In this document: positions 1-58,788 of the stretch, one piece after another
How positions within the stretch are numbered: the stretch's first letter is position 1
Layout of the letters: every line of letters begins with the position of its first letter
DNA from: Capsulimonadaceae bacterium
GTDB taxonomy: Bacteria; Armatimonadota; Armatimonadia; Armatimonadales; Capsulimonadaceae
DNA: 64,000 bases
Assembly (NCBI GenBank): GCA_031292625.1
Contig: JARLGU010000054.1
Span: 1 to 64,000 of the forward strand
Direction: 5' to 3'
Notes under the pieces: model-generated
Seen by the model: only the letters and a program-made list of their open reading frames with translations
What the model was told of the DNA's origin: nothing
Databases searched by the model: none
Position numbers and translations under genes: made by a program

Positions 1-244
1 TACAGAACCTAACAAAGAGGCTTAGTGATTTCGGATATTTCGTTACGCTTGATCCCATACCTATTGGGGCATAGCTTCGGCATGCAATAGATCATCTACC
101 TAAACTCTTGGTTCGATGACTGCCACCGAGCCGAATGATATTTCACGTGTCTGGCATAGCCTGAGTGCGTTCTATTTCCAGAGCAGCGAAAGTGAAAAAT
201 GGCCAGCCCGGCCATGGAGGGAATCTTAATCCTCATCTTCTCGT
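1..244. other. intergenic start of window with partial family 2 repeat
   Basis: No gene is supported here. The first 145 bases show nothing recognisable. From about 150 to 244 the sequence matches the 3' half of the family 2 repeat, with a TGGCC-AGCCC-GGCCA hairpin near 196-210 and the ending AATCCTCATCTTCTC. It runs directly into family 1 copy A. The same fusion of a family 2 end to a family 1 start is seen at 43668. Confidence 0.6.
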
Positions 245-4274: not shown

Positions 4275-5771
4275 TTGTCACTGTTTACATCAATTGAGAA
4301 GGGCGATTTGAAGGGCGTTCTTAAACGCCTCAAGTCTGGAGCATCGCTGACGGTCTTGGATGATCTCGGCATGATGCCGCTGCATGTCGCCGCGGACGCC
4401 GGATACCTGGAGATTGTGCAGGCGTTGGTTGACGCCGGCGCTGAGATCGATGGTTTGAGCGAAACGGGGCAGACGCCCCTTCATGTGGCCGCTATCCAGC
4501 ATACTGAGATCGCCAAGTACTTGATGGATCGCGGCGCGGACATCCAACGCGAGGACGAGACCGGGGCAACGCCTCTCCATGTCGCCGCGGGAGCAGGCAA
4601 CATGACTCTCGCTGAGCTTCTGGTTGACGCGGGAGCAGAGCTTGAGGGCGAGGAGTTTGACGGCAATACTCCGCTTGACAATGCTCGTTCTTACGGTCGG
4701 GTCGACGTTGCCGAATTGCTCATCGCGCACGGGGCAAATACGCGCGGGTGGCCGGCTGAGGATGTTCTGGAGCATTGCCGCGAACGTGCTGTCTATGTCG
4801 CGGACATGGTGCGCCGGTTTACACTTGGCAACAACGCGCCGCTCTTTCAGGCGATCGAAAACCAGGACCTGCAACGTGTCCGGCGCGCGCTGAAGCCGGG
4901 AGCCGATATTAATTGCGGCGCGCCTGACGGCAGCACTCCGCTGGCCGCCGCGGCGAGCGCTGGCAACGCCGCAATTGTACAATGTCTTATCGATGCGGGC
5001 GCTGATCCGAATATTCCGGACGTCACCGGGTTCATTCCGCTTCATGACGCTGCGATCCATGGCAACCTTGAGACCATGCGCATATTGCTTAATGCGGGGA
5101 GCCGGATCGACGCGAGGGACGGCGGGTACTCGCCGCTTGAAGCGGCTGTCGATCAATCACAATACGAAGCGGTCAAATTGCTTGTCGAAAGCGGCGCGGA
5201 TACGCGTGGTCTATCGATCGACGATTTGCTTACCGAGGCGAAATACCTGGCGCAATTCGACGAGGACGACGAGCCTCCTCCAGGGGTGCGGCAGCGCTTC
5301 GGAAAGAGGACGCCCGGCGGAAGGATGGCCCGGCGGCACTTTCAGACTTTGCAATCGCTGGGGTTTGAGCATTTCGCGAGCCTTGTCGCTTGCTCGGACA
5401 CGGGGTGTGAAACGTATGTCTTTACGTCGAAGAAGCACAAGGCGTTCGCATTGCTGCAGGAGTCTACGCACATGGAAGCCGCGTGGATGTCGTTTACCGC
5501 ATTCCATGAAGACGGGACGATTTACGCTCTAAGCAACATTGGCGAAGACGATCGTCTTGGAGAATCGCAGGATGTCGCTCTGTTCTTAGAGTCGAAGCGC
5601 ATTCTCGATCCCGCGGCGCTGTTTGAGTGCTTTCGCGAGCGTCGCCCAAAGAAGAAGGCCGCTGACTTGAGTGACCAGGATTTTGTCGAGTGGCTCCTAG
5701 CGACGGCAGAAATTACCGAACGTTCATCTGACAACGATGACGAATTAGAGGACGAACAAGATGACGACTGA
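4275..5771 (+). CDS. ankyrin-repeat protein embedded in the arg operon
   Basis: About eight ankyrin repeats of roughly 33 residues fill the first 340 residues (TPLHVAA..G....A..L...GA pattern). A region of about 150 residues without a recognisable domain follows, and the tail is acidic (DDELEDEQDDD). There is no signal peptide, so it is probably cytoplasmic. I chose TTG 4275 because AGAGGA lies 6 nt upstream; an in-frame ATG at 4194 would overlap argB by 71 bp. The 3' end overlaps the argD start by 11 bp, so the two are translationally coupled. Its function is unknown. A role as a protein-interaction partner or regulator of the pathway enzymes is speculation from position. Confidence 0.85.
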   Translation: MSLFTSIEKGDLKGVLKRLKSGASLTVLDDLGMMPLHVAADAGYLEIVQALVDAGAEIDGLSETGQTPLHVAAIQHTEIAKYLMDRGADIQREDETGATPLHVAAGAGNMTLAELLVDAGAELEGEEFDGNTPLDNARSYGRVDVAELLIAHGANTRGWPAEDVLEHCRERAVYVADMVRRFTLGNNAPLFQAIENQDLQRVRRALKPGADINCGAPDGSTPLAAAASAGNAAIVQCLIDAGADPNIPDVTGFIPLHDAAIHGNLETMRILLNAGSRIDARDGGYSPLEAAVDQSQYEAVKLLVESGADTRGLSIDDLLTEAKYLAQFDEDDEPPPGVRQRFGKRTPGGRMARRHFQTLQSLGFEHFASLVACSDTGCETYVFTSKKHKAFALLQESTHMEAAWMSFTAFHEDGTIYALSNIGEDDRLGESQDVALFLESKRILDPAALFECFRERRPKKKAADLSDQDFVEWLLATAEITERSSDNDDELEDEQDDD

Positions 5772-13289: not shown

Positions 13290-13446
13290 TGTTAGCACGC
13301 GCGTGAAAAATCGAAAGTCCTTGTAAGACGGCTCCCCGGCCGCCGTGGCTGTTTTTGAACAAGGGCCGTCAAAGCGCTTTCACTGCTTAACGATGTGCGC
13401 TGGGATCGGACGATGGCTGCAAAAGGCCGTACGCGTGTTGACGCGA
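13290..13446 (-). repeat. family 1 dispersed element, copy B (truncated, inverted)
   Basis: The minus strand carries the conserved 3' block of family 1, with variants of the GGCGGCCGGGGAGCCG and GTCTTACAAGGAC segments and a divergent closing arm near 13291. It then has only part of one 93-bp module. The match is lost at about 13446, seven bases before the P450 stop codon, so this copy lacks its opening arm. It is the only copy in the window on the minus strand. Confidence 0.75.
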
Positions 13447-13452
13447 CCTTGA

Positions 13453-14703
13453 CTATCGGACGCCGTTGATGGAGTGCAGCCTGCCGGACATAGCGTGAGC
13501 GGGGCGCAGGGTAACAAGGGGCTTCCAGGCGGGAACGAAATCGGGCGCTACGCTTACTCGCCAGCGGCAAGCAAGCAATGAGAGCGCCAGGATCCCTTCG
13601 GCCCACGCAAACGGCTCGCCGATACAAAGGTGCGGGCCCGAGCCGAACGGGAAGAAGGCGTTGCGCACAGGCTTTGGCGAATCAATCCAGCGTTCTGGGC
13701 GAAACTCGCGAGGATCCACGAACCAGCGCTCGTCGATCTGCGTGACGCACGGGGCGAGCACGACGATTTCGCCGGCCGCAATTTGTGCGCCGGGAACCTC
13801 GACTGCCTCGATTGCTTGCCGGCTAAGCATCCAAGCTGGCGGGTACAGGCGCAACGTTTCCGCCAAAACGGCACGCGCGTACGTGAGGCGCTGCGTGAGT
13901 GGAAACGGCGCGTCGAGTTCGCCGGCATCGATCGCCGCCGCTTCGCATTCAAGCTTTTCGCGCACGCGCGGATGCCGATCGATCAGCATCCACGCCCATG
14001 CAAGAGCGATCGCGATCGATTCATGCCCGGCGATGAGAAGCGTCGCCGCGTGGTCCCGGCGACGCGCCTCGGGCAATTGTGCCAGCGCGTCGAGCACATG
14101 CGTCCCGCAGCCTTGCCCACGCAGAAGCCCTTCATCCGCCGCCGCTCGCAGCGGTGCAAAGGCGCTGTTTGCCTCGCGGGCATCCGGGCGATTCGACGAC
14201 GGACCGAGCCGCGAATACCCGGCATCGATCGCGGTCGACAGGGCGCTTCCGATCTCGCAGGCGTCTATGCTGGCTGTTCCTCCAAAGAAACAGCGTATCG
14301 CAACCTCAAGCGATAACGCGCCCATCTCGCGGTGAATGTCGATCTCTTGCTCGTCGCGCCACGCTGTTAGGGTGCTCTGGATTGCGGCAGCCATCGTTTG
14401 CGCGTATTCGCCCATGACGGCCGTCGTCACGAATGCCGGCAGGAGAGCGCGCCGATCCGACGCATGAACGGGACCGTCCGTCGTGAGCAATCCTTGCCCA
14501 AGAACCGGTCGCGAACGCAGCAGGCCTGGTCCCTTAACGAAGCTCGCGGCATGCGCTACGAGCACTCCTCGTATTGCCTCCGGATGTGCGAGGAGCGTGA
14601 GCCGGTGCGCGCCGATGCGAAACCGCGCGACATCGCCCGCGCGGGCGTGGAGTGAGCGCAGAAAGGCAACGGGATCCGCTCGGAATTCGTTTAGGTCAGA
14701 CAT
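13453..14703 (-). CDS. cytochrome P450
   Basis: This 416-residue haem monooxygenase has the three P450 landmarks. The I-helix oxygen-activation site is IAGHESIA, where the usual Thr is Ser. The K-helix ExxR is AETLRLYPP, and the haem-thiolate loop is FPFGSGPHLCIGEPFA. There is no membrane anchor, so it is a soluble type needing separate redox partners, none of which is nearby. ATG 14703 is chosen because AGGGGCGG lies just upstream and conserved sequence begins there. It follows the DUF6807 gene by 22 bp, so it is the last gene of the leftward operon. The substrate is unknown. Confidence 0.93.
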   Translation of the reverse strand: MSDLNEFRADPVAFLRSLHARAGDVARFRIGAHRLTLLAHPEAIRGVLVAHAASFVKGPGLLRSRPVLGQGLLTTDGPVHASDRRALLPAFVTTAVMGEYAQTMAAAIQSTLTAWRDEQEIDIHREMGALSLEVAIRCFFGGTASIDACEIGSALSTAIDAGYSRLGPSSNRPDAREANSAFAPLRAAADEGLLRGQGCGTHVLDALAQLPEARRRDHAATLLIAGHESIAIALAWAWMLIDRHPRVREKLECEAAAIDAGELDAPFPLTQRLTYARAVLAETLRLYPPAWMLSRQAIEAVEVPGAQIAAGEIVVLAPCVTQIDERWFVDPREFRPERWIDSPKPVRNAFFPFGSGPHLCIGEPFAWAEGILALSLLACRWRVSVAPDFVPAWKPLVTLRPAHAMSGRLHSINGVR

Positions 14704-35799: not shown

Positions 35800-35989
35800 G
35801 AGAAGATAAGGATTAAGATACCCTCTCTGGCCGGGCTGGCCATTTTTCTGTAGCCGCTTAGCTCTCAGCCTGTTGGCAAGCCGCAGGCGAAGCGCTTGAA
35901 AAATGGTCCAGCGGCCAAAGAACGTTCCTAAGTCCTGACCAATTTAGGGTAGCCACTCGCTTAACGCACAGCAAGCGAAAGTCCCACAT
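35800..35989 (-). repeat. family 2 dispersed repeat, full-length copy ii (inverted)
   Basis: The reverse complement matches 25308-25500 over its length, including the GTTAAGCGAGTGG, AAATTGGTCAGGACT, AGGAACGTTC and GCGGCTTGCC blocks, and the hairpin TGGCC-AGCCC-GGCCA. It starts immediately after the stop codon of pseudopilin gene 3, so it may form the 3' end of that transcript. Confidence 0.75.
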
Positions 35990-40276: not shown

Positions 40277-40813
40277 AGAGTCTGTGTAATCAACTGGCGT
40301 ATTGCGAGAAAGATTCAGGACGGCTCGTGCCGCCGGGGCATTTTTTTGCCCGCGCCTCGTTCACTGCGGTGATTTACGATGCTTCGTCAACACGCGTACG
40401 GCGTTTTACCGCCATCGTCCGCCGGTCACGGACCGGTCTTGCCCGCGCCTCGTTCACGGCGGTGGATGACGAAGGCACGTCAACACGCGTACAGCCTTTT
40501 GCCGCCATCGTCCGCCGGTCACGGACCGGTCTCTCTCGCGCCTCGTTCACGGCGGTGATTTCCGTTGCCTCGTCAACACGCGTACGGCGTTTTGCCGCCA
40601 TCGTCCGCCGGTCACGGACCGGTCTCTCGCGCGCCTCGTTCACTGCCGTGATTTACGATGCCTCGTCAACACGCGCACGGCCCTTTGCCGCCATCGTTCG
40701 ATCCCAGCGCACATCGTGAGCCGTGAAAGCGCTGTGACGGCCCTTTTTCAAAAACGGCCACGGCGGCCGGGGAGCCGTCTTACAAGACCTTTCGATTCTT
40801 TACACACGCTCTG
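40277..40813 (+). repeat. family 1 dispersed element, copy C (four modules, longest)
   Basis: The opening arm CAGAGTCTGTGTAA (40277-40290) and closing arm TTACACACGCTCTG (40800-40813) are inverted repeats matching at 12 of 14 positions. Four modules begin at 40351, 40444, 40537 and 40630, a period of exactly 93 bp. Each has CGCGCCTCGTTCAC, CGTCAACACGCG, CGCCATCGT and, between modules, a perfect hairpin CCGGTC-ACG-GACCGG. The 3' block (40741-40799) contains CCCTTTTTCAAAAACGG, GGCGGCCGGGGAGCCG and GTCT-TACA-AGAC. No transposase is encoded. Frames stay open because 93 is a multiple of three. Confidence 0.88.
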
Positions 40814-43562: not shown

Positions 43563-43665
43563 AATGGCGACCTTCGCTTGCGGCTTGCCAACAGGCTGAG
43601 TGTTAAGCGGCCAAAGAAATAAGGCCAGTCCGGCCACAGGGGGCGCCTTAATCCTCATCTTCTCT
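43563..43665 (+). repeat. family 2 dispersed repeat, partial copy iii
   Basis: This copy keeps CGCTTGCGGCTTGCC, ACAGGCTGAG, the GGCC-AGTCC-GGCC hairpin and the ending TTAATCCTCATCTTCTCTT. It abuts family 1 copy D, repeating the arrangement at 150-245, so the two families may be one composite unit at these sites. Confidence 0.7.
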
Positions 43666-44012
43666 TAGTGTGTAAGAAGTTGGCGTATTGCGAGAAAGAT
43701 TCAGGACGGCTCGTGCCGCCGGGGCACTTTTTTGCCCGCGCCTCGTTCATGGCGGTGATTTACGATGCTTCGTCAACCCGCGTACGGCCTTTTGCCGCCA
43801 TCGTCCGCCGGTCACGGACCGGTCTCGCCCGCGCCTCGTTCATGGCGGTGATTTACGATGCCTCGTCAACACGCGCACGGTCCTTTGCAGTCAGCGTCCG
43901 ATCCCAGCGCACATCGTGAAGCAGGAGGATCGCCATGCCGTCCATTTTTCAAAAACGGCCTCGGCGGCCGGGGAGCCGTCCTGCAAAACCTTTCGATCTT
44001 TTACACACGCTC
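43666..44012 (+). repeat. family 1 dispersed element, copy D (two modules)
   Basis: Opening arm TAGTGTGTAA and closing arm TTACACACGCTC (44001-44012) flank two modules starting at 43737 and 43830 (93-bp period). The 3' block is conserved with minor changes (TTTTTCAAAAACGGCC, CGGCGGCCGGGGAGCCG). It lies in the divergent region between the LCP gene and nadA. Confidence 0.85.
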
Positions 44013-44095
44013 TTACAAAGCGACTCCTAATAATATCGGCGCCAATCGACTACTGGCGCGCCTCGAAATTTTCCACGGAACACTGAAATCGCCGA

Positions 44096-48749: not shown

Positions 48750-48763
48750 TGCGTGTTATAAAA

Positions 48764-49110
48764 GTGTGTGTAATCAACTGGCGTATTGCGAGAAAGATTC
48801 AGGACGGCTCGTGCCGCCGGGGCACTTTTTTGCCCGCGCCTCGTTCACGGCGGTGATTTACGATGCCACGTCAACACGCGTACGGCCTTTTGCCGCCATC
48901 GTCCGCCGGTCACGGACCGGTTTTGCCCGCGCCTCGTTCACGGCGGTGATTTACGATGCTTCGTCAACACGCGTACGGCCTTTTGGCGGCAGCGCCCGAT
49001 TTCTGCGCACATCGTGAAGCAGGAGAATGCGCTTGGACGTCCCTTTTTCAAAAACGGCCACGGCGGCCGGGAAGCCGTCTTACAAGACCTTTCGATTTCT
49101 TACGCACGCT
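48764..49110 (+). repeat. family 1 dispersed element, copy E (two modules)
   Basis: GTGTGTAA (48766-48773) pairs with TTACGCAC (49100-49107), with one T-G wobble. Modules start at 48835 and 48928, a 93-bp period, followed by the conserved 3' block. It lies between convergent genes, beginning 15 bp after the khpB terminator. Confidence 0.85.
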
Positions 49111-49208
49111 CCAGGTGGCTTAATCCGCTTGCCTGGGCTTTGTTAGCGGTCGCAAATACAAGCCCAAGCCCTTTCTGAGAGCCTCTCATTCGAGGATAGA
49201 ACGGCCGC

Positions 49209-58355: not shown

Positions 58356-58788
58356 GAGTGTGTGTAATAGACTGGCGTATTGCGAGAAAGATTCAGGACG
58401 GCTCATGCCGCCGGGGCATTCTTTCACTCGCGCCTCGTTCATGGCGGTGATTAACGATACCTCGTCAACACGCGTACGGCGTTTTGCCGCCATCGTCCGC
58501 CGGTCACGGACCGGTCTCGCGCGCGCCTCGTTCACGGCGGTGATTAACGATGCTTCGTCAACCCGCGTACGGCGTTTTGCCGCCATCGTCCGCCGGTCAC
58601 GGACCGGTCTCACTCGCGCCTCGTTCACGGCGGTGATTAACGATACCTCGTCAACGCGCGTACGGCCTTTTGCCGCCCGGGTCCGATTCCACCGCACATA
58701 GTGAAGCGGTGAAAGCGCTGTGACGGCCCTTTTTCAAAAACGGCCCCGGAGCCGTCTTAAAAATCCTCTCGAATATTACGCACGCTCT
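58356..58788 (+). repeat. family 1 dispersed element, copy F (three modules)
   Basis: This copy has the clearest arms: AGAGTGTGTGTAATA (58356-58370) against TATTACGCACGCTCT (58774-58788), 13 Watson-Crick pairs and two T-G wobbles over 15 positions. Modules start at 58429, 58522 and 58615, again exactly 93 bp apart. The 3' block is shortened (the GGCCACGGCGGCC part is reduced). It occupies a divergent intergenic region. Confidence 0.88.

Follow-up and report, generated by a model that had tools for sequence, protein, structure and literature searches.

The stretch of 64,000 nucleotides analysed here as a whole, referred to below as the window, carries six copies of a repeat that we call family 1. 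One of them, element C (40278-40811, plus strand), is composed of a head, three full 93-bp modules, one partial module and a tail, and ends in the terminal arms GAGTCTGTGTAA / TTACACACGCTC, with the left terminal inverted repeat at 40278-40289 (plus) and the right one at 40800-40811 (minus). In the left arm, an inward-facing terminator-like hairpin with its T-run, GTGCCGCCGGGGCATTTTTTT, occupies 40327-40347 (plus); its counterpart in the right arm, CGGCCGCCGTGGCCGTTTTT, lies at 40750-40769 (minus) and shows compensatory changes across copies. The full modules, all on the plus strand, span 40351-40443, 40444-40536 and 40537-40629. The first holds the CCGGTCACGGACCGG hairpin at 40422-40436, the second and third a hairpin at 40515-40529 and 40608-40622, respectively, and the terminal partial module (40630-40700, plus) has none.

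The remaining copies vary in module number. Element A (246-500, plus) has one partial module and adjoins a family-3 repeat at 201-242, and element B (13295-13466, minus) is inverted and lacks the head block. Elements D (43668-44012, plus) and E (48761-49111, plus) each have one full and one partial module, D being flanked by TTA on both sides (43665-43667 and 44013-44015) and adjoining a family-3 repeat at 43623-43664. Element F (58356-58787, plus) has two full modules and one partial, with a TTA target duplication on both sides. Modules start at 40351, 40444, 40537 and 40630 in C, at 43737 and 43830 in D, at 48835 and 48928 in E, and at 58429, 58522 and 58615 in F.

An earlier note on this DNA had described six copies sharing a head and a tail around modules of exactly 93 bp. 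All six are present, with slightly shifted boundaries, and the module starts, 93 bp apart, bear out the repeat unit. Its description of the modules needs one correction: the last module of each element is partial (approximately 70 bp) and is devoid of the CCGGTC-ACG-GACCGG hairpin. This hairpin sits only between modules, with seven occurrences in the window, and one-module copies are therefore without it.

Copy number, module arrays and dimers

A pattern search of the whole genome (5.77 Mb, 65 contigs) returned 92 head blocks, 84 tail blocks and 232 modules, and reversed control patterns gave no matches in the same search. Using nhmmer, with a summed score of the parts above 100 as the cut-off for an element, 163 family-1 elements were located in 1.09 Mb, consisting mostly of stretches around pattern matches. 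Complete head-to-tail elements accounted for 132 of the 163 and were mostly 220-700 bp long. They contain a head, zero to five full modules, a partial module and a tail, so that, counting the last, partial one, the module number was 1 in 90 elements, 2 in 24, 3 in 8, 4 in 8 and 6 in a single element. The total amounts to at least 170 copies, as further family-1 places exist beyond the stretches scanned for parts, and approximately seven additional places outside the fetched stretches were found among the best 150 scored in a genome model search. The earlier note had anticipated hundreds of copies per genome, which is the right order of magnitude, although the density in the window is above the genome average. 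The family is spread genome-wide rather than confined to the window, and, in line with the intergenic placement described in that note, 161 of the 163 elements are located outside the gene predictions of a rough caller written for this analysis, with no orientation bias.

The spacing between modules across the genome is by far most often 93 bp (76 cases), and neighbouring values such as 83, 94 and 96 also occur; we attribute the peaks at 78 and 108-109 to the anchor matching falsely beyond the modules. Mean divergence between modules is 9.5% within one element versus 14.6% between elements, and terminal modules are less uniform than internal ones. The number of modules would probably change through recombination or slippage between direct repeats. 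Entire elements are also found as tandem dimers on five contigs, in unrelated places (C20:306447-307080, C23:36-634, C28:48148-48717, C46:506250-506665 and C53:1-451), and the recurrence of one conserved junction (AAGGGCAGCTGAGAAAGCGAGCC...) in all of them suggests that the dimers moved as units.

Terminal repeats, target duplication and the mobilising enzyme

Family-1 elements end in imperfect inverted repeats near GAGYGTGTGTAA, with the consensus GAGTGTGTGTAA / GAGCGTGTGTAA over 93 elements. Among the 49 elements with recognisable ends, 21 showed an exact 3-bp match between their flanks and none a match of 2 or 4 bp. Re-pairing the flanks yielded a mean of 5.9 matches, and 0 of 2000 shuffles reached 21. 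The insertion site has the consensus C-TNA-G, of which TNA is duplicated. The other 28 of the 49 elements have no matching duplication, which counts against mobility. Empty sites were recovered for two nested copies, and both are paralogous rather than orthologous: for the copy at C48:28331, the joined flanks minus one TNA align without interruption to nine family-3 copies, most of which carry a single TTA, and for the copy at C24:36680, the joined flanks align to uninterrupted family-2 arms.

These elements are short and numerous (163 copies), with neither a transposase nor a coding signal, as is characteristic of miniature inverted-repeat transposable elements (MITEs). We consider it highly likely that family 1 is a non-autonomous DNA transposon of this kind, built on a BOX-like plan and mobilised in trans by a DDE transposase. 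Of the origins put forward in the earlier note, MITE-like or RNA-mediated, the former is thus favoured by the terminal inverted repeats, the 3-bp duplication, the nested empty sites, the many copies and the lack of a transposase. The enzyme would recognise the terminal repeats and cut at the C-TNA-G site, leaving the 3-bp TNA duplication, the behaviour seen in the IS1031 subgroup, which belongs to the IS5 family. Insertions of IS1031 elements occur at TNA and generate exclusively a 3-bp repeat, and the inverted repeat of the member described starts with GA (PMC12016507), features that are shared by family 1. Unlike them, family 1 has no transposase inside, and searches of the assembly with the Pfam profiles PF13340, PF13359 and PF13586 revealed no transposase of the IS1031 type. 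For this reason, we file family 1 as IS1031-like in behaviour and not as a member of IS1031 or IS5.

It is possible, though in our judgement rather unlikely, that the mobiliser was instead a different DDE transposase, from outside the IS1031 subgroup, that also generates 3-bp duplications and prefers TNA. The lack of matches to the IS1031-type Pfam models in the assembly would agree with such an enzyme, but a TNA target together with a repeat of exclusively 3 bp is what has been described for IS1031 (PMC12016507), and the assembly is fragmented at repeats. Given that several of its 65 contigs end inside repeats, the mobilising transposase, whichever its subgroup, could be missing from the assembly. 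An autonomous element with the same arms, which the earlier note had suggested looking for, was not found in this incomplete assembly, but such a partner is not a strict requirement for a MITE. Six PF01609 genes (on C49, C40, C41, C59, C63 and C12) were considered and rejected, as they have no family-1 ends in the stretches examined. Family 1 probably relied for its movement on the enzyme of another transposon, one that can no longer be detected in this poorly studied bacterium. Other repeats with unrelated interiors carry the family-1 terminal arms, which would be the outcome if a single enzyme had moved many repeats. In an alignment of 90 one-module copies, pairwise identity never rises above 95%, and identity to the consensus has a median of 87.5%; recent activity is therefore unlikely, and family 1 appears to be inactive at present.

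Several related repeats occur in the genome. Family 3 (GGCCAGCCCGGCCATGGAGGGCATCTTAATCCTCATCTTCTCTTACAAAGCG), present in the window at 201-242, 43623-43664 and 35800-35841 (minus), adjoins or surrounds several family-1 copies and has served as a landing site. Family 2 combines the family-1 terminal arms and a GACGGCTC motif with an unrelated interior (L173:4925, L176:5708, L100:3199, L147, L114 and L054). Two short single elements, at L061:11497-11700 and L175:5042-5240, have the family-1 terminal arms with other interiors. At three contig ends (window 1-189, L164:10197-10415 and L161:1-212), family-1-like arms at the start are followed by a longer interior that reaches the end of the contig; these could represent a longer element, possibly autonomous or composite.

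Hairpins, conservation and coding potential

Each arm contains a short hairpin followed by a T-run, resembling a terminator and facing inward. In the 3'-arm hairpin, 92.3% of cells are paired versus 81.0 in shuffled alignments, and slid controls reached at most 54%. Its two outer stem pairs hold 18 double-changed cells against 3.6 in shuffled alignments, a count that exceeds the number of independent events, as variants may be shared by subfamilies or result from arm swaps. The 5'-arm hairpin shows a compensatory effect at one pair. Judging from their structure, the arm hairpins and T-runs may act as terminators and would then stop transcription entering the element from outside, which fits the tolerated positions just behind genes. 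The median distance of elements to gene 3' ends is 58 nt versus 120 nt to 5' ends (P = 5e-5, rough gene caller), and enrichment in convergent intergenic regions was not significant (P = 0.14).

Sequence conservation is uneven along the element. In copies identified through the opposite end, divergence was 3-11% in conserved interior blocks and 18-33% in terminal repeats, spacers and the module centre, a contrast that may be inflated by alignment error at the ends and by subfamily mixing. Conservation is lowest in the terminal repeats (22-33% divergence); were these the main target of constraint, this would be surprising, and it counts against a MITE. Nearest-neighbour pairs keep a block-to-spacer ratio of 0.32-0.33, the same as in all pairs, and this suggests lasting constraint on the interior blocks. 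Private variants are not depleted in these blocks, so the result on selection after insertion is mixed. We consider it improbable that the elements were kept after insertion as transcription insulators, with the inward terminators and interior blocks under selection while the terminal repeats decayed. If this were true, one transposon family would be supplying terminators to many genes, with the 93-bp modules as adjustable spacers.

A further reading, in which the host maintains a family of structured or regulatory RNAs at many loci, appears very unlikely. It could account for interior blocks that are several times better conserved than the ends, also on copies found by the opposite end, for the unchanged rate ratio in nearest-neighbour pairs, and for the covariation of the 3'-arm hairpin. 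However, RNAalifold detected almost no consensus fold over the whole element in 90 copies (-2.7 kcal/mol), the terminal arms show no covariation indicating pairing with each other, and an Rfam search with family 1 gave no match. The lack of orientation bias relative to genes and of any depletion of private variants in conserved blocks also speaks against it. A whole-element structured RNA was dropped on the basis of the fold, the arms and the Rfam search, and of the RNA alternative in the earlier note, only the arm hairpins survive.

We give very little credence to a protein-coding repeat, for which 93 bp would correspond to 31 codons, with one forward frame nearly always open (ASFTAVIYDASSTRVRPFAAIV...). 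A stop in that frame is found in only 4 of 196 modules, versus 12.6 in simulations, and at L107:1540-4065 an insertion lengthens an ABC-transporter gene, adding four repeats of 31 residues. Against this, the synonymous share equals chance in six out of six frames, three-base periodicity is weak, several frames were inspected and the elements lie between genes; a coding module was rejected on account of the first two. Equally hard to sustain is spread by a Y1 tyrosine transposase, as for REP/RAYT-type repeats, or by some other mechanism without target duplication. This would suit the palindromic parts, intergenic location and high copy number but not the exact 3-bp duplications, the empty sites, or complete elements of mostly 220-700 bp with inverted ends in place of 20-40 bp palindromes.

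Distribution and comparison with known repeats

The bacterium can be placed in the Armatimonadota by inference, as its closest NadA matches in GTDB come from Armatimonadetes MAGs (62-64% identity). Searches of 290 other genomes of this phylum (291 with the genome analysed here) gave no convincing match to family 1. Short matches of 28-42 bp in G017 and G139 were isolated, without the rest of the element, and were read as chance. Plasmid and phage searches returned no match, nor did GTDB and IMG/VR, which were scanned with exact 20-mers only. The statement in the earlier note that the repeat matches no known element is correct for its sequence in the collections searched, but its architecture is that of BOX elements. 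Family 1 follows the modular A-B(n)-C architecture of the BOX type and may be called BOX-like by plan, a likeness and not a membership, drawn from architecture and not from sequence. It differs from BOX in its phylum and in its 93-bp module, boxB being 45 bp long, as well as in the partial terminal module, the linking hairpin found only between modules and the terminator-like hairpins in both arms. The BOX elements of Streptococcus pneumoniae are arranged as boxA-boxB(n)-boxC, measure 67-637 bp and have terminal repeats and target duplications (PMC3049150). Like family 1, those of S. pneumoniae and S. suis combine a head, variable tandem modules and a tail, are intergenic, have terminal repeats and target duplications, and encode no transposase (PMC3049150). 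What family 1 adds is another phylum, a pair of hairpins that face inward and, for a BOX-type element, a 3-bp TNA duplication. Finding the BOX plan of fixed ends around a variable number of near-identical modules in so distant a phylum, together with paired inward-facing terminator-like hairpins and a clean 3-bp TNA duplication suggestive of an IS1031-type enzyme, provides a second system in which to test how modular BOX-type repeats arise and how dense intergenic insertions are tolerated.

Other small repeats share fewer features. SPRITE of S. pneumoniae is likewise a small interspersed repeat with a structure resembling a Rho-independent terminator and is enriched near gene 3' ends; its terminal repeats are four bases long, it forms a single long hairpin and a target duplication has not been demonstrated for it (PMC3049150), in contrast to the two short hairpins facing each other and the 3-bp duplication of family 1. 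QMITE1 and QMITE2 of Coxiella burnetii are also bacterial MITE families, of 150-400 bp and approximately 50 copies, and QMITE1 resembles family 1 in its 2-3 nt duplications, whereas those of QMITE2 are 7-11 nt; the abstract describing them mentions variable tandem modules for neither (PMC5896051).

Open reading frames and extended gene ends arise from the larger BOX copies, and BOX elements insert into other repeats (PMC3049150); both have parallels in family 1. At the ABC-transporter locus (contig C41, element at 5092-5590), a four-module copy runs in frame into the gene and lengthens its product considerably at the C terminus, resembling the gene-end extensions produced by BOX elements (PMC3049150).
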